A stretch of DNA of 6,817 nucleotides, taken from contig JALVIU010000395.1 in NCBI GenBank assembly GCA_027028665.1, forward strand, positions 1 through 6,817, read 5' to 3'. The notes below the pieces were generated by a model. That model ran no database searches, had not been told where the DNA came from, and saw only the letters and a list, made by a program, of their open reading frames with translations. This document shows positions 1 to 6,817 of the stretch, piece by piece. The stretch comes from Candidatus Atribacteria bacterium (GTDB taxonomy: Bacteria > Atribacterota > JALVIU01). Positions within the stretch are counted from its first letter, which is position 1. Each line of letters starts with the position of its first letter. Made by a program: the position numbers and the translations under genes.

Positions 1-1034
1 CTATACGTTGTTTCACCCATATGTCCTATACGGATTACCTTTCCAGAAAATTTACCCTGTCCTTTGCTAATTATTATTCCATACTTTTCTTTAAGAATAG
101 AAAGTATCCTCTTATCTTCTCCTTCTGAGACAAAGGCTGCAGTAACAGTGTATGATGCATCTTCATCCTGTGCAACAAGTTCAAGACCTATCTCTTTAAG
201 GCCCCCTCTTGCTACATCTCTCATAATTTTATGTCTTTTAAACCTGTTTTCCAGACCCTCCTCCTCAATTATTTTTAACGCCTCGGCTAATCCATATACC
301 AAAGATACAGGAGGAGTGTATGGATTTTGAGGTATATTCCTCTCTTGATAAGAAAGGACAAGATCAAAGTCAAAGTAGTATCTTGGAAGTTTTGAGGTCT
401 TCATCCTACTTAATGCCTTATCCGATACTGAAACAAGAGAAAGACCAGGTGGTGTCATAAGTGCCTTCTGTGATGCAGTAACCACTACATCTATCCCGTT
501 TTTGTCCTGTCTTACAGGCATTGCACCTACAGAGCTTACACCATCTACGATAAATAGTACATCTGGAAAGCTCCTCATCACCTCTCCTATCTTTTCAAGG
601 TCAACCATTACCCCTGTAGATGTCTCATTATGTGTAACCAGGATAGCTCTTATATCTTTATCATTTTTAAGTTTATCATATAACATATCTGGATCAGGGG
701 TCTTGCCCCATGGTGTATCCAATCTATCTACAGATAAATTATATCTCTTTGCAATCTCCAAAAATCTATCTCCAAAGTGTCCACAAGATAGTGAAAGCAA
801 CTTTTCCTGTGGTGAAAATAGATTTACTATAGAGGCCTCAAGACCTCCTGTCCCGGAAGAAGGAAAAAGTAAAATCTTAGAAGTAGTACCCAATACCTCT
901 TTCATATGAGAAAGAATGGAACCAAAGATCTTTCCATATTCTTCTCCTCTATGAGAAATCATATCTTTAGTCATTGACTGTATTATCCTCTTAGGAAGGG
1001 GCGTAGGACCTGGAATAAGAAGATATTTTCTCAT
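1..1034 (-). CDS. Class V PLP-dependent aminotransferase (alanine/serine-glyoxylate type), 3' end cut by window
   Basis: The first 344 residues are visible; the stop lies beyond position 1. The family is usually about 380 residues, so some 35-40 are missing. Fold type I class V landmarks appear in order. An N-terminal LIPGPTPLP is followed by SSGTGG (59-64), which binds the PLP phosphate. VDGVSSVG (163-170) carries the Asp (D164) that contacts the pyridine nitrogen. ASQKALMTPPG follows, with K190 as the Schiff-base lysine, then NPYTPPV (237-243). IRIGHMG (334-340) near the C-terminus has the Arg (R336) that binds the substrate carboxylate. Members move an amino group from alanine, serine or phosphoserine-type donors to glyoxylate or another 2-oxo acid, in the cytoplasm. 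The exact substrate cannot be read from the sequence. In several thermophiles a relative sits next to serA and works in serine synthesis, but the downstream gene is not visible. The ATG at 1034 is set by AAGGAG at 1046-1041 with a 6-nt spacer. The gene is divergent from tatA. Confidence 0.93.
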   Translation of the reverse strand, partial: MRKYLLIPGPTPLPKRIIQSMTKDMISHRGEEYGKIFGSILSHMKEVLGTTSKILLFPSSGTGGLEASIVNLFSPQEKLLSLSCGHFGDRFLEIAKRYNLSVDRLDTPWGKTPDPDMLYDKLKNDKDIRAILVTHNETSTGVMVDLEKIGEVMRSFPDVLFIVDGVSSVGAMPVRQDKNGIDVVVTASQKALMTPPGLSLVSVSDKALSRMKTSKLPRYYFDFDLVLSYQERNIPQNPYTPPVSLVYGLAEALKIIEEEGLENRFKRHKIMRDVARGGLKEIGLELVAQDEDASYTVTAAFVSEGEDKRILSILKEKYGIIISKGQGKFSGKVIRIGHMGETTY

Positions 1035-1051
1035 ATTAGCCTCCTTATTTT

Positions 1052-1069
1052 GTGCAAATTTTTTTGCAC
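1052..1069. repeat. Perfect 7-bp inverted repeat GTGCAAA-N4-TTTGCAC in the aminotransferase leader
   Basis: The arms at 1052-1058 and 1063-1069 are exact reverse complements, separated by four T on the plus strand. Apart from the ribosome-binding region it is the main GC-containing patch in a very AT-rich spacer. It lies just downstream of the predicted minus-strand start point and before the ribosome-binding site, so it fits an operator for a dimeric repressor or a small leader hairpin. It does not match a consensus I can name. Its symmetry is seen directly; its function is inferred. Confidence 0.5.
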
Positions 1070-1083
1070 TTTTTACTTTAAGC

Positions 1084-1112
1084 ATTTTAACACATCTATA
1101 AATATTTTACAA
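1084..1112 (-). promoter_or_regulatory. Predicted sigma-A promoter for the aminotransferase gene
   Basis: On the minus strand, TTGTAA (1112-1107) is followed by a 17-nt spacer and TAAAAT (1089-1084). A TGT directly before the -10 box gives an extended -10. The start point would fall near 1077, leaving a leader of about 43 nt that contains the 1052-1069 inverted repeat and the AAGGAG site. The call rests on consensus similarity only. Confidence 0.6.
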
Positions 1113-1171: not shown

Positions 1172-1178
1172 GAGGTGA
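1172..1178 (+). promoter_or_regulatory. Ribosome-binding site that sets the tatA start
   Basis: GAGGTGA sits 5 nt upstream of the ATG at 1184. The in-frame GTG at 1175 lies inside this site, so it cannot be the start. The protein therefore begins MFGLGF, as TatA proteins usually do. Confidence 0.85.
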
Positions 1179-1183
1179 ATTTT

Positions 1184-1507
1184 ATGTTTGGTTTAGGATT
1201 CCCCGAGCTAATTCTTATATTAATAATTGCACTTATTATTTTTGGACCTGGAAAATTACCTGAAGTAGGAAAGGCTATAGGTAAGTCTGTACGAGAGTTT
1301 AAAAAGGCAACCAACGAAATTAAACAAGAATTCGAAATCGATGAGCCATCTTCACCAAAAAGAGAAGTTTCAAATACAGAAACAACTCAGAAGGAGGACT
1401 CGGCTTCCCAAGTATCTACTGAAACTAAACAACCTGTAACAAAGCAAAATCCATATTCCACTGTTTTTGATGAAAAGGCAGGAGAAAAAACACAAGAAAA
1501 TAGTTAA
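1184..1507 (+). CDS. tatA: Sec-independent (twin-arginine) translocase subunit TatA
   Basis: The 107-residue protein has the standard TatA/E layout. A very short N-terminus with FPEL (6-9) leads into one hydrophobic membrane helix (about 8-20). The FG hinge follows (F20-G21) with [10 protein letters not shown] (21-30), then a basic amphipathic helix to about residue 47. TatA oligomerises at the cytoplasmic membrane and opens the path for folded proteins with RR signal peptides, recruited by TatC. The conserved F-G and KLPE residues make the family call firm. TatA and TatE types are not separable from one copy, and TatB is less likely because the protein is short and has the TatA-type hinge. 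The tail (about 55-107) is rich in Ser, Thr, Gln, Lys and Glu, looks disordered, and is of the kind that varies among TatA proteins. No tatC lies in the window. The gene appears to have its own promoter and ends in the hairpin shared with glgC. Confidence 0.93.
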
Positions 1508-1551
1508 AAAGAAGAGGGCATTACCATCCCTCTTCTTTTATAATATTTTTT
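1507..1551. terminator. Bidirectional intrinsic terminator between convergent tatA and glgC
   Basis: A perfect 12-bp stem pairs 1507-1518 with 1528-1539 (AAAAGAAGAGGG against CCCTCTTCTTTT) across a 9-nt loop. On the plus strand the stem ends in TTTT, and a run of six T follows at 1546-1551. On the minus strand the stem runs out into TTTTT. The glgC stop codon (1523-1521) lies in the loop and the last GlgC codons form one arm. The last base of the tatA stop begins the other arm. The A/T-rich outer stem and GC-rich inner stem suit termination in both directions. Confidence 0.85.
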
Positions 1552-2786
1552 CCACTGGGGAGAACAGGGCTTGAAAAGTCTTCTTCTCCTATAAAAGCAT
1601 CTATAAGGGCATTTCTCCCTATTCTTACTCCTTCTGGTATATGTGTACCTTTACCAATCACGGTTATACCACATGTAAGTTCCGGAAATCTCTCATTTGG
1701 CATATAGTCTTCTCCATCACCTACTATAACATTCCTATTTATGTATATATCTTTATCTAATATAGCTTTATGAACAACAGAGCCCTCTGCAATATAGGTG
1801 TTATTCATTACAATGGAATCAACAATTTTCGCACTTTCACTTACGTATACCCCAGGAAATAGTACAGAATTTATAACCTCACCATTTACAATACATCCAT
1901 TTGCCACAATACTATGTACTACATTTGCATCCTTTCCTACCTTTACAGGAGGTTTCTCTTCACTTTTTGTTCTTATTATCCAATTTCTATCATAAAGGTC
2001 GAATCTTGGAAGGGGTTTCACAAGTTCCATATTGGCATTGTAATAAGATTCTATAGTACCTATGTCATCCCAAAATCCGTTAAATCTATAGGCATAAACC
2101 TTTTCTCCATTGGAAAGCGCATCTATTATAACATCTTCCACCAAACTATACTTTCCTTCAGGCACTATAGTCTTTAATTTATCTACCAGATAATCCCTAT
2201 TAAAAAGATATATACCCATAAATGCGATATTGCTCTTTGGTTTCTCTGGTTTTTCCTCAAAGGAGACTACCTCATCCCCCTGGATTTCAACAATTCCAAA
2301 TCTCTTTGTTTGTTCAGGGGAGACCTCTATGGTGGCTATACTGATCTCTGCACCTTTTTCCTTGTGAAACTCTATAAGCTTCGTATAATCCATCTTATAT
2401 ACCTGATCTCCTGAGAGTATAAGTATATAATCAGGCATAGTATCATCTATAAAGTCCATATTCTGATATACTGCATCTGCTGTCCCTCTATACCATGAAG
2501 AACCCCCTTCCCTTAGATAGGGCTGGAGTATCCTTATCCCTCCCCTCAATCTATCCAGATCCCAGGGCTTTCCTACCCCGATATGTTGATTAAGGGAAAG
2601 AGGCCTAAATTGTGTAAGAAGACCTATATCAAAGATACCAGAATTTACACAATTACTAAGTGTAAAATCTATCACTCTGTATTTTCCTCCATAGGGAAGA
2701 GCTGCTGTAGCCCTCTTACGCGTAAGGACAGGCAATCTGCTACCCTTTCCCCCTGCTAATATAAAGGTTATCACCTTTTTAGCCAT
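1521..2786 (-). CDS. glgC: Glucose-1-phosphate adenylyltransferase (ADP-glucose pyrophosphorylase)
   Basis: This enzyme converts glucose-1-phosphate and ATP to ADP-glucose and PPi, the committed step of bacterial glycogen synthesis, in the cytoplasm. Its 421 residues are a normal full length. The N-terminal nucleotidyltransferase domain has LAGGKGSR (10-17), GGKYRVIDF (33-41), LSNCVNSGI (43-51), WYRGTADAVYQN (98-109) and GD (126-127). D127 matches the catalytic Asp142 of E. coli. The sugar-phosphate motif FEEKP (176-180), MGIYLF (190-195) and FWDDIGT (238-244, D241 for E. coli Asp276) follow. From about 285 a hexapeptide-type left-handed beta-helix forms the C-terminal half, as in the family. 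The usual RAKPAV segment after the P-loop reads RATAAL (25-30). The Lys equivalent to E. coli Lys39, the fructose-1,6-bisphosphate site residue, is kept as K24. The ATG at 2786 is preceded by AGGAGG (2797-2792) with 5-nt spacing. It is the last gene of the operon, 12 nt after the TPR gene. Confidence 0.96.
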   Translation of the reverse strand: MAKKVITFILAGGKGSRLPVLTRKRATAALPYGGKYRVIDFTLSNCVNSGIFDIGLLTQFRPLSLNQHIGVGKPWDLDRLRGGIRILQPYLREGGSSWYRGTADAVYQNMDFIDDTMPDYILILSGDQVYKMDYTKLIEFHKEKGAEISIATIEVSPEQTKRFGIVEIQGDEVVSFEEKPEKPKSNIAFMGIYLFNRDYLVDKLKTIVPEGKYSLVEDVIIDALSNGEKVYAYRFNGFWDDIGTIESYYNANMELVKPLPRFDLYDRNWIIRTKSEEKPPVKVGKDANVVHSIVANGCIVNGEVINSVLFPGVYVSESAKIVDSIVMNNTYIAEGSVVHKAILDKDIYINRNVIVGDGEDYMPNERFPELTCGITVIGKGTHIPEGVRIGRNALIDAFIGEEDFSSPVLPSGKNIIKEEGW

Positions 2787-2798
2787 TTTATCCTCCTA

Positions 2799-5075
2799 TT
2801 ACTTTACAAATTTCAAAACCAGATTCATCACTTTACTCAAATCCCTCTCTTGAACATAAGCACCTTTGGTCTTAGATATATACCTATTTTCTATGATCAA
2901 TTTCTTTATATCCTTATTATAACTAAAATCGAGTCTATACAATATCTCATCATTTTCTATAAAAAATTCCTGTGGAACTTCAGAAAGGGTATAATCCCCC
3001 ATATTTACTTCTATCCTCCTCCTTACTGTATATGGAAAACCCGGTTCCCTATAGGGAAGAATATATGGAGGATGAAAAGAAGATCCCTCAATCAATTGTT
3101 TAAGATCCACCTTCATTGCTATCTGTAAAGGAATATCCAATCTCTTTATATCTGAGGTCTCTATGTGAGAAATAGAGGCCCTTTTATCAAAAAACCACAA
3201 CTCAGGAACCGATACATCTGTATGATTATAAAGCATTCTTCTATAATAGAGGTCATATAGACCCCTCATATAAAAGACAACCTCTGCACTTTCTGGTTTT
3301 TCAAGGTTTATCTTTACATAATCCTCTCTTACATTCTCGCCAAAGGAAGGACAAGAGAGTTTTAAACTCTCTCCCCTGGTTATAAAGAATGCATCTTTAC
3401 CTATATCCTCTGGTAAGATAGTTCCAAATGGTGTAAAGGGATATGGCTCCAAAAATTTATTACTATCTAAAAAGAGTACACCCTTTAAGCCTGGGTCGAA
3501 AGATGGGAATTTTACGCTTTCTTCATTATCTATAAAGCCCAAATCTACATCCATGCCTTTCTTCTTATAAATATCAAAAAGGGCGATGGAAAACAAGAGA
3601 TTATCATATATATACAAAGGTGTAAGGGCATGATCTGAAAATAAAAATAAAAATCTCTTTGGGCTATTATAGCAGGAAGATATAAATGTATTATATACAC
3701 CTTCCAGAGAAGAGGTATTATCTAAAGAAAAGTCTTTATAGATATCTCCCATCCATCTGGCAAGATAGGTATAAAGGTCTTTCCAATCTATAAAATTATT
3801 AATGGTTAAAGATAAATTAGGATCTTTTTTGAGGGAGATCCTCTTATATCTTTCGTTATCTTCTATATTTACTTTATATTTGGGATATATATTAAAACTT
3901 ACTCCTTGAGGAATCAAGACATCTATTGCACGATGTTCAGTAGGGTACCGTGGTGATGGTATAAATATATGGAATTTACCATCCTCAGGGGTTTTTACCT
4001 TTACTACAAATTTATATTCTAACAATATAGGTTTACCAATATTGGACCTTATTACAGCATTTTCATATAGTATACCAGTTTCTGTTTTCTCTTCCTCTAC
4101 AAAATAATCAAAATCCTTCTCCCCAAGTTGTTTTTTATCTTTTGTAACCCCATTTAAAAGATAAAGTGAAAACTCCACATAACGTCTATCATATGCAAAC
4201 TTAAGGCCCTCCTGGAGTAGTGAGGGGTCTTTTACAAAAAGTAGCCTATGAACAGTCTCTACATAATCCCCCTGGGTAGAAAGTGTACATAGTATCTTTT
4301 CAGATATTATCTCAATTCTATCTTTGTAATTGTCCATATTGTCGAAATACGAAGCTATCTTATTCTTTGCCTCTATCTCCTTACTCACAGGAGTGAAAGT
4401 AGGTGTTGATGTAGGCGTAGGAGGAGCAGAAAACTTTGCAATGATAGAGAGGTATGTCTTTACCTCCTCATCCTTTGGGGCAAGCTTTTTTACTCTACTA
4501 AATATTTTTTTTGCCTTATCAAACTCTCCAAGCTCTAAATAAGAGATTCCAAGATATTTCAAAAATACAGGGTCATCTTTATAAGAGAGTTCTGCCTTTA
4601 AGAAATTTTCTATAGCTTTTTGATAATCCCTATCATTAAAATAGATCTTGCCCAATTCATAAAAAGAACTTGCCTCATTACCTTTATACAATACACTCAT
4701 TCGAAATTCGGCCTTAGCCTTTTCCATATATTCTGCTGCCATCTTTTCATATAGGAGTCCAAGCAGAAAATGTATCTTTCTCCCTGTAATGCCAGATGCA
4801 AGAAGTCTTTCCAATTTATCTTTTGCTACAAGAAGCTCTCCCTTCCCTATAAGTTCCTCGATTGCTTTCAGTTCCTTATTTATATCTACAGTATGGACAA
4901 TGGAAGGAGTAGGTATAGACTGTGGTATCTTAAATAAAACTTCATTTAGATAAAGAGTTGGTAAAGTATCAAAATATGTAGTTTTAAAAGTAAGGGTAAA
5001 AAGAAGAACCAAAAAAATTAAAAACCAGTTTACTCTTTTTTTTGGCCTTCTTTTTACCCTTCTACTTTTTTTCAT
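2799..5075 (-). CDS. Membrane-anchored TPR protein with DUF3857/transglutaminase-like region lacking catalytic residues
   Basis: The 758-residue protein starts with a strongly basic segment (10 Lys/Arg in residues 2-14) and one membrane helix (about 17-30). It is therefore expected to be N-in with the rest outside the membrane. Residues 66-215 are helical TPR-type repeats, clearest at 137-166 and 171-200. A Pro/Thr-rich linker (216-230) follows. Residues 250-430 resemble the DUF3857 beta domain (ILLEYKFVV, then HRAIDVLIPQGV). Residues 431-575 resemble the transglutaminase-like core (DWKDL, a YDN at the usual GDC position, FLEPYPFTPFG). The end (about 590-758) fits the C-terminal beta domain seen in such proteins. 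Cys is replaced by Asn492, and no His occurs from 483 to 617, so transglutaminase or protease activity is unlikely. The ATG at 5075 lies 5 nt after the hflC stop with no strong ribosome-binding site, so translational coupling is likely. The TPR call is firm; the DUF3857/transglutaminase reading is a hand alignment. Its role is unknown; a partner of HflKC is inferred from linkage and topology. Confidence 0.8.
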   Translation of the reverse strand: MKKSRRVKRRPKKRVNWFLIFLVLLFTLTFKTTYFDTLPTLYLNEVLFKIPQSIPTPSIVHTVDINKELKAIEELIGKGELLVAKDKLERLLASGITGRKIHFLLGLLYEKMAAEYMEKAKAEFRMSVLYKGNEASSFYELGKIYFNDRDYQKAIENFLKAELSYKDDPVFLKYLGISYLELGEFDKAKKIFSRVKKLAPKDEEVKTYLSIIAKFSAPPTPTSTPTFTPVSKEIEAKNKIASYFDNMDNYKDRIEIISEKILCTLSTQGDYVETVHRLLFVKDPSLLQEGLKFAYDRRYVEFSLYLLNGVTKDKKQLGEKDFDYFVEEEKTETGILYENAVIRSNIGKPILLEYKFVVKVKTPEDGKFHIFIPSPRYPTEHRAIDVLIPQGVSFNIYPKYKVNIEDNERYKRISLKKDPNLSLTINNFIDWKDLYTYLARWMGDIYKDFSLDNTSSLEGVYNTFISSCYNSPKRFLFLFSDHALTPLYIYDNLLFSIALFDIYKKKGMDVDLGFIDNEESVKFPSFDPGLKGVLFLDSNKFLEPYPFTPFGTILPEDIGKDAFFITRGESLKLSCPSFGENVREDYVKINLEKPESAEVVFYMRGLYDLYYRRMLYNHTDVSVPELWFFDKRASISHIETSDIKRLDIPLQIAMKVDLKQLIEGSSFHPPYILPYREPGFPYTVRRRIEVNMGDYTLSEVPQEFFIENDEILYRLDFSYNKDIKKLIIENRYISKTKGAYVQERDLSKVMNLVLKFVK
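4386..4430 (-). repeat. Pro/Thr-rich linker-coding microrepeat
   Basis: Residues 216-230 of the TPR protein read SAPPTPTSTPTFTPV, coded by alternating CCT and ACN codons. Such linkers are typical between extracytoplasmic domains, which supports the outside location of the C-terminal part. The repeat is short and imperfect. Confidence 0.6.
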
Positions 5076-5080
5076 ATTTC

Positions 5081-5944
5081 TTACTTATTGAATTTTTCAG
5101 TAAATATTTCTAAAAATTTAGAATCTCTTGAAAGAATAAAGTTTGCTCCCCCTTTGAAAGCATTCTTGTAGGCTTCAAGAGATCTCAAAAACTTATAGAA
5201 TATAGGATCCTGTCCATATGCCTCTGCATAGATCTTTATAGCTTCCGCATCCCCTTCTCCTCTTAAGATTTCTGCCTTTTTATAGGCATCTGCCATTATA
5301 ATCTTTACCTGTTTATCAGTTTCTGCCTTGATTTTTGCTGCCTCTTCCATACCTTCTGATCTATATTTTTTTGCCTGTCTTTGTCTTTCTGATTTCATTC
5401 TATTAAATACAGCTTTTTCATTCTCTTTAGGAAGATCTGCTCTTTTGAGTCTTACATCTACTATCTCTATACCAAACTCACTTGCCTTTTTATTAGATAT
5501 AGCAGTAACTGTCTTCATAATAGTTTCTCTATCCTTGGAGATAATATTTGAAAGTTCATAGGATCCAAGATCTACCCTGAGCTCTGAATATATTATGTCA
5601 TCAAGTCTTACCTCTGCCCCATTTATATTCTTTACAGAGATCAGAAACTTCTTTGGATCTACTATTCTCCATGTAGCATAACTATCTACAATAAGAGTTT
5701 TTTTATCCTTTGTTATAACCTCTGTTGGGGGTGAATCATAATACATAAGCCTCTTTTCAAAAAATACAACTGACTGTATAGGGGATGGTAGCTTAAATTT
5801 AAGGCCTGGTGTTTTAATTACTCTAACTATCTTTCCAAGTTGTAATACTACGGCCTGAGAGTTTTCCGGTACAATGAATACCACTCTTACAAATAGCCAG
5901 ATAAGAATTAACACGAGAATTGTTATAGCTATTGATTTTTTCAT
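5081..5944 (-). CDS. hflC: HflC, SPFH/band-7 membrane protein, FtsH modulator
   Basis: HflC pairs with HflK in a membrane complex that, in E. coli, cages the FtsH protease and limits its access to substrates. This 287-residue protein has one N-terminal membrane helix (about 5-24). The SPFH domain follows, with VPENSQAVVLQLGKIVRV (25-42), PGLKFKLP (46-53) and DSYATWRIVDP (87-97). A Lys/Glu-rich helix with heptad character (about 175-235) leads to the HflC hallmark ILRGEGDAEAIKIYAEAYGQ (226-245), then FYKFLRSLEAY (249-259) and LSRDSKFLEIF (271-281). It is shorter than the 334 residues of E. coli HflC. I chose the ATG at 5944 over the in-frame GTG at 5962. GGAGGT (5957-5952) lies 7 nt before the ATG, and the GTG would put hydrophilic residues ahead of the helix and overlap hflK. 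The gap to the hflK stop is 1 nt. Stomatin or prohibitin is excluded by the EAYGQDP signature and the hflK neighbour. Confidence 0.95.
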   Translation of the reverse strand: MKKSIAITILVLILIWLFVRVVFIVPENSQAVVLQLGKIVRVIKTPGLKFKLPSPIQSVVFFEKRLMYYDSPPTEVITKDKKTLIVDSYATWRIVDPKKFLISVKNINGAEVRLDDIIYSELRVDLGSYELSNIISKDRETIMKTVTAISNKKASEFGIEIVDVRLKRADLPKENEKAVFNRMKSERQRQAKKYRSEGMEEAAKIKAETDKQVKIIMADAYKKAEILRGEGDAEAIKIYAEAYGQDPIFYKFLRSLEAYKNAFKGGANFILSRDSKFLEIFTEKFNK

Positions 5945-5945
5945 C

Positions 5946-6817
5946 TTATTTACCTCCCCCACTTATAACTCCTGTTCCTACCAGGCCTGGATTAGAACCC
6001 TGAGGAAAGTTTATAAGATTTATATTTGTAGTATTTGCATCCACTATAGTGACCTTTGCACCTTTTATGACCTCTTCCATAGTCTCAAGATAGAGTCTCT
6101 CTTTTGTAATATCTTCATTTTTCTTATATTCTGAAAGCATCTTCAAAAATCTCTGTGCATCACCTTCTGCCTTTTTCACTATACTTATCTTATAACTCTC
6201 TGCTTCTTTAACCACCCTTACTGCTTCACCCCTTGTTTTAGGTAAGATATCATTTTTATATCCCTCTGCCTCGTTTATATATCTATTTTTGTCTTCTTTT
6301 GCACTTGCTACATCCTTAAATGCATCTTCTACCTCCTTTGGGGGTGTTACATCCTGAAGCTGTACCCCTATTATCTTTATACCCAATAAGTATTTATCAG
6401 ATATCCTCTGTAAAAGCCCTTTAATATCCTCTTGAACTTCATATTTCCCCACTGTCAAAACTTTATCTATAGTAGAATTACCTATCACCTGTCTTAGGGC
6501 AGATTCTGTAGCAATTTTTAGGATCTTATCAGGATGAATGACTTTAAATACATAATCATAGGCATTTTTTATTTTATATTGAACGATCATCTCAATACTT
6601 ACTATATTTTCATCCCCTGTTAGCATGAGTGCCTCTTCTGGTATATACCTATAATTCGCAGTCCCTCCTGTATATCCTATTGTTCTGAAACCTATCTCAA
6701 TTCTCTTAACCTCTGTTACCTTCACAATACTTACACTTTCAAGGGGTACAGGGAGCTTCATATGTACACCAGGTCTTTCTGTACGCACATATTTTCCAAA
6801 TCTGAGAACCAATCCCT
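5946..6817 (-). CDS. hflK: HflK, SPFH/band-7 membrane protein, 5' end outside the window
   Basis: The visible 289 complete codons lack the N-terminus, including the expected membrane helix. The TTG at 6812 is internal, not a start: the frame is open to the edge, and GLVLRFGKY is the usual interior E-x-G-V-V-x-R-F-G strand of HflK. Counting from the Leu at 6812, it shows RPGVHMKLPVPLESV (13-27), IEIGFR (38-43), ALMLTGDENIVSIEMIVQYK (61-80) and VQLQDVTPPKEVEDAFKDV (150-168). ALMLTGDEN is a strong HflK hallmark. A long charged helix (about 158-250) with RGEAVRVVKEAESYK (194-208) and AEGDAQRF (215-222) should form the coiled coil of the HflKC cage. The C-terminus has the typical INLINFP (264-270) and a short Gly-rich tail ending SGGGK. 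The stop at 5948-5946 is followed after 1 nt by the hflC ATG. Any operon promoter lies beyond 6817. Confidence 0.94.
   Translation of the reverse strand, partial: GLVLRFGKYVRTERPGVHMKLPVPLESVSIVKVTEVKRIEIGFRTIGYTGGTANYRYIPEEALMLTGDENIVSIEMIVQYKIKNAYDYVFKVIHPDKILKIATESALRQVIGNSTIDKVLTVGKYEVQEDIKGLLQRISDKYLLGIKIIGVQLQDVTPPKEVEDAFKDVASAKEDKNRYINEAEGYKNDILPKTRGEAVRVVKEAESYKISIVKKAEGDAQRFLKMLSEYKKNEDITKERLYLETMEEVIKGAKVTIVDANTTNINLINFPQGSNPGLVGTGVISGGGK
5952..5957 (-). promoter_or_regulatory. hflC ribosome-binding site inside the 3' end of hflK
   Basis: GGAGGT lies 7 nt before the hflC ATG at 5944 and is also part of the codons for the last Gly residues of HflK. It fixes the hflC start and, with the 1-nt TAA-G-ATG junction, suggests coupled translation and near-equal amounts of the two subunits. 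Confidence 0.85.

Follow-up and report, generated by a model that had tools for sequence, protein, structure and literature searches.

Related proteins and systems

Proteins with the domain order TPR, DUF3857, Transglut_core, and DUF3858 are present in Atribacterota (family f5), Omnitrophota, Aerophobetes, and other groups (e.g., loci L092, L095, and L097). This family has been little studied and almost no literature is devoted to it. Its canonical members keep a Cys-His-Asp catalytic triad and score far above the Pfam cut-offs. Searching by sequence profile gave a single DUF3857-type structure, 3KD4 (BDI_1141), a putative protease of Parabacteroides distasonis.

A second group of relevant systems concerns the membrane protease FtsH. 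In E. coli, HflK/C builds an open shell in the periplasm that has a modulating effect on FtsH clients (PMC12048511). LapB/YciM, a membrane-bound TPR protein, acts with FtsH in LpxC turnover (PMC7730581, PMC7157816).

The 758-aa protein described here is encoded behind hflKC in an Atribacterota genome. It appears to share with the TPR-DUF3857-Transglut_core-DUF3858 proteins an N-terminal signal or anchor, TPRs, and collinear DUF3857, transglutaminase, and C-terminal beta parts. In contrast to the canonical members, it has lost the triad, falls below Pfam detection, and is located behind hflKC. With LapB/YciM it has in common one membrane helix plus TPRs, a likeness that is limited to generic TPR similarity; LapB carries in addition a rubredoxin-like part and its TPRs are cytoplasmic.

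Gene order on the contig

The window is an entire contig of 6817 bp (C395) from a MAG of 413 contigs, the source genome being the only member of its family (f1) among the genomes searched. Four genes follow one another on the minus strand. The first one, hflK (5946..6815; TIGR01933, E 1.9e-85 in NCBIfam), is truncated at its 5' end by the contig border, so that its upstream sequence lies beyond the contig. It is followed by hflC (5081..5944; TIGR01932, E 1.7e-72 in NCBIfam), whose open reading frame opens at GTG 5962 and whose probable start is the ATG at 5944, with a GGGGAGG Shine-Dalgarno sequence. The third gene (2799..5075), with an ATG start and 758 intact codons, is predicted to encode a membrane-anchored TPR and pseudo-transglutaminase (DUF3857/TG/DUF3858-like) protein on the basis of its ORF, the Pfam TPR match, a profile match, an AF model, and the match to 3KD4. 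A glgC-like glucose-1-phosphate nucleotidyltransferase gene (1521..2786; Pfam) lies 12 nt downstream.

The hflC stop and the start of the 758-codon ORF are separated by 5 nt (5076-5080), as had been reported in the initial annotation, and the absence of a strong ribosome-binding site, also reported there, is corroborated: the ATG is preceded by AATAAGTAAGAAATATG, with no strong Shine-Dalgarno sequence, whereas both neighbours possess a clear one (hflC, GGGGGAGGT; glgC, AGGAGG). Gaps of 2-4 nt recur between several genes on one other contig of the same genome, from which this comparison was drawn. Therefore, a spacing of 5 nt is nothing unusual for this genome and says little on partnership.

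The rest of the contig carries a tatA/mttA-family gene (1175-1504, plus strand; Pfam TatA_B_E, 3.8e-20), convergent with the glgC-like gene, and a class V aminotransferase gene (3-1085, minus strand; Pfam Aminotran_5, 1.3e-33) that is cut at the contig end. A second glgC-like copy is present in the genome (contig C142, 4041-5036, plus strand) and shares 56% identity with residues 3-332 of the glgC in the window; two close-set glgC-like copies are found in several relatives.

Anatomy and location of the protein

The N-terminus of the protein is formed by 16 highly basic residues, rich in Arg and Lys, ahead of a single membrane helix (residues 17-32; 4980..5027, minus strand) that is indicated by hydropathy and by the model. 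The hydrophobic core of this helix is short, and no later stretch of the protein is equally hydrophobic, in agreement with the one N-terminal helix annotated initially. According to the positive-inside rule, everything past the helix would be placed outside the cytoplasm. The helix is likely kept as an anchor, since no clean signal-peptidase or lipobox motif is seen in the sequence. In 27/40 proteins of the family alignment the N-terminal part matches a simple lipobox pattern, the window protein having no match; the frequency of the pattern in the family, like the Pro/Thr-rich linker of the window protein, agrees with an extracytoplasmic placement.

LptC- and LptA-like genes are present in the same genome (locus L099, contig C333, 2699-6134; the contig used for the gap comparison), which suggests that the cell is diderm, with an outer membrane and hence a periplasm. 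On that contig these genes are followed by one for a 737-aa protein with no Pfam match.

The helix is followed by a TPR region of about four repeats (residues ~65-216; 4428..4883, minus strand), detected by Pfam (TPR_1, E 3.4e-10) and by structure matches (Z ~15 to TPR structures), with a model pLDDT of ~90. TPR is the only domain that Pfam finds in the protein, and an SPFH/Band 7 domain is absent from it. A Pro/Thr-rich linker, APPTPTSTPTFTPVSK (residues 217-232; 4380..4427, minus strand; pLDDT <50), leads to the rest of the molecule, which is mostly beta in the model from residue 250 to 758. Three parts can be proposed within it, all on the minus strand: a DUF3857-like beta domain (residues ~250-425; 3801..4328), with approximate boundaries drawn from the collinear hhalign match, a MAFFT alignment, and the model; a degenerate transglutaminase-like core (residues ~426-575; 3351..3800); and a C-terminal beta region (residues 576-758; 2802..3350) that is DUF3858-like at its end according to hhalign and the model.

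Remote homology to the TPR-DUF3857-transglutaminase family

Searches of Pfam, NCBIfam, and PDB sequences gave no usable match for residues 217-758, and Pfam and NCBIfam did not detect DUF3857 (PF12969) or the transglutaminase part even at E 10. Seven Atribacterota proteins carrying PF12969 were found, all with DUF3857 after the TPR region; the one that was scanned over its full length showed TPR, DUF3857, Transglut_core, and DUF3858. A first small profile built from these seven proteins gave an hhalign score of 34.2, versus ≤21.7 for ten shuffles. A larger profile was composed of 82 TPR-DUF3857-transglutaminase family proteins, the window protein being left out. Against it, residues 217-758 scored 46.0 (P 6.2e-5) over 391 collinear columns, while thirty shuffles reached ≤26.5, the reversed sequence 16.4, and 85 unrelated real decoy proteins ≤26.1. 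HMMER profile support is weak, 8 bits in total. Therefore, the 758-aa protein appears to be a highly diverged member of the TPR-DUF3857-transglutaminase-DUF3858 family, as judged from sequence profiles, and the reading as a TPR and DUF3857/transglutaminase-like protein in the initial annotation probably holds.

The predicted structure points in the same direction. The AF2 model obtained with 39 family proteins as alignment has a mean pLDDT of 76.3, the single-sequence model 39.6. For model residues 250-756, 3kd4 comes out as the best PDB match (Foldseek E 2.7e-17), with a Z of 16.0 and an rmsd of 5.4 over 417 residues at about 8-10% identity; the matched 3KD4 chain range has no TPR module. This match indicates a transglutaminase-like fold after DUF3857 in a model that was fed with the family alignment. 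The homology claim is carried by the sequence profile-profile test, of which the alignment-fed model is not independent. Foldseek matches to AspH, GLIC, and OST were rejected (TM-scores 0.08-0.15, rmsd 16-20).

The family profile recovers seven canonical members in Atribacterota, all of them in family f5, the other Atribacterota matches being TPRs or short fragments. Among 49 further Atribacterota genomes, the non-TPR part had no relative at E 0.1, except for one chance-like match of 42 residues. Pattern scans of GTDB genomes and viral contigs yielded no second member of the diverged lineage. Such extreme divergence, the restriction to one genome, and the unusual synteny are what could be expected from a functionless, drifting relict of the family, or from a gene acquired by this genome alone that entered the hflKC-glgC run; this reading is unlikely, however, in view of an intact ORF of 758 codons in which all the domains are kept in order.

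Loss of the catalytic triad

In the columns of the Cys-His-Asp triad, the window protein has a gap, P528, and E543: the catalytic Cys is deleted, His is replaced by Pro, and Asp by Glu. C, H, and D occupy these columns in 37/37 DUF3857 proteins recruited by HMM. The count was taken from HMM-recruited loci because the motif KYGDCKD had served in part to select the 80 family loci studied, which biases them toward an intact Cys; some of the HMM-recruited loci still come from genomes chosen via the KYGDCKD scan. Within the modelled core, confidence falls to some of its lowest values in the loop 472-488, which flanks the missing Cys. The domain architecture initially proposed is probably right; the loss of the triad, which a member of the family would need as an enzyme, was absent from that annotation.

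Since the triad is gone, yet kept in all 37 of the proteins checked, the 758-aa protein is most likely a pseudoenzyme. The core fold is apparently retained in the model, and other residues might carry out hydrolysis or transfer in a rebuilt active site. Against this stand the deleted Cys column and both substitutions, as well as the positions of cysteines 263, 468, and 575, none of which is found where the core helix begins, the site of the catalytic Cys; an active enzyme is therefore very unlikely.

Gene neighbourhood in relatives

The initial annotation had put forward the protein as an HflKC partner. A lineage-specific association with HflKC, or HflKC-FtsH, in which the TPRs and the dead transglutaminase body would engage the cage in the periplasm, or the clients of the cage, can be argued from several observations: the protein has the topology of HflK and HflC, its gene follows hflC at 5 nt with a weak ribosome-binding site of its own, and FtsH is encoded in the same genome. 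The E. coli HflK/C shell (PMC12048511) also fits such a role, and the LapB/YciM-FtsH pair (PMC7730581, PMC7157816) offers a precedent for a TPR protein that acts with FtsH.

The comparison with other genomes speaks against it. hflC was identified in 17/20 hflKC regions of Atribacterota relatives, and in none of these 17 loci is there a counterpart of the 758-aa gene after hflC; the genes found there are unrelated and, as a rule, are read from the opposite strand. No hflK or hflC match was found in the 80 family loci, with flanks of up to 6 kb, and the clustering of their neighbours revealed no theme linked to HflKC. The seven f5 members are likewise in other neighbourhoods, mostly adjoining an apparent cysteine desulfurase gene (judged by eye from sequence), so that homologues lie away from hflKC at the level of the family, which counts against the partnership by the initial annotation's own yardstick. 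Apart from these canonical f5 proteins, the non-TPR part has no Atribacterota counterpart, either beside hflKC or elsewhere. The adjacency to glgC is equally private, since in relatives glgC is on other contigs or far away; as far as seen, the complete hflKC-gene-glgC run occurs in this genome alone. The frequent 2-4-nt gaps on another contig also weaken the argument from spacing, and the TPRs of the LapB/YciM precedent face the cytoplasm.

Conserved gene linkage to hflKC is thus absent both from the hflKC loci of relatives and from the family loci. The topology resembling that of HflK/HflC stands, but the partnership is not supported: nothing beyond position in a single genome, and topology, ties the protein to HflKC. 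A place beside hflKC, seen in a single fragmented genome, argues only weakly for partnership, and such an association is unlikely. Its fuller version is improbable: a transglutaminase-family protein that lost catalysis would have been taken up by one Atribacterota lineage to serve HflKC/FtsH in the periplasm, as an adaptor or a client receptor, and would be produced in step with HflC.

The placement behind hflC could also be an artefact of MAG assembly, given a single 6.8-kb contig out of 413 and a synteny not seen in relatives. However, two reading frames join at a normal 5-nt junction and the GC content, 35%, matches that of two other contigs, which makes an artefact highly improbable.

A putative periplasmic scaffold

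The best explanation, with a probability of about 0.6, is that the protein is a family member that has diverged strongly and lost catalysis, and that it would act as a membrane-tethered periplasmic scaffold and would be co-transcribed with hflKC and glgC. Its single N-terminal helix would anchor the protein in the inner membrane, and the remainder would lie in the periplasm. With catalysis gone, the protein may have become a binding scaffold, whose TPRs, together with the cleft of the dead core, could hold at the membrane a ligand that may be a protein, a peptide, or a glycan. Co-transcription is probable because all these genes are in one tight same-strand run, rather than because the protein would belong to the HflKC cage as a structural component.

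All other members checked of this envelope family are intact enzymes; the family can apparently lose its triad and yet keep the whole domain order, and the TPR and beta domains of this family may serve a non-catalytic role.
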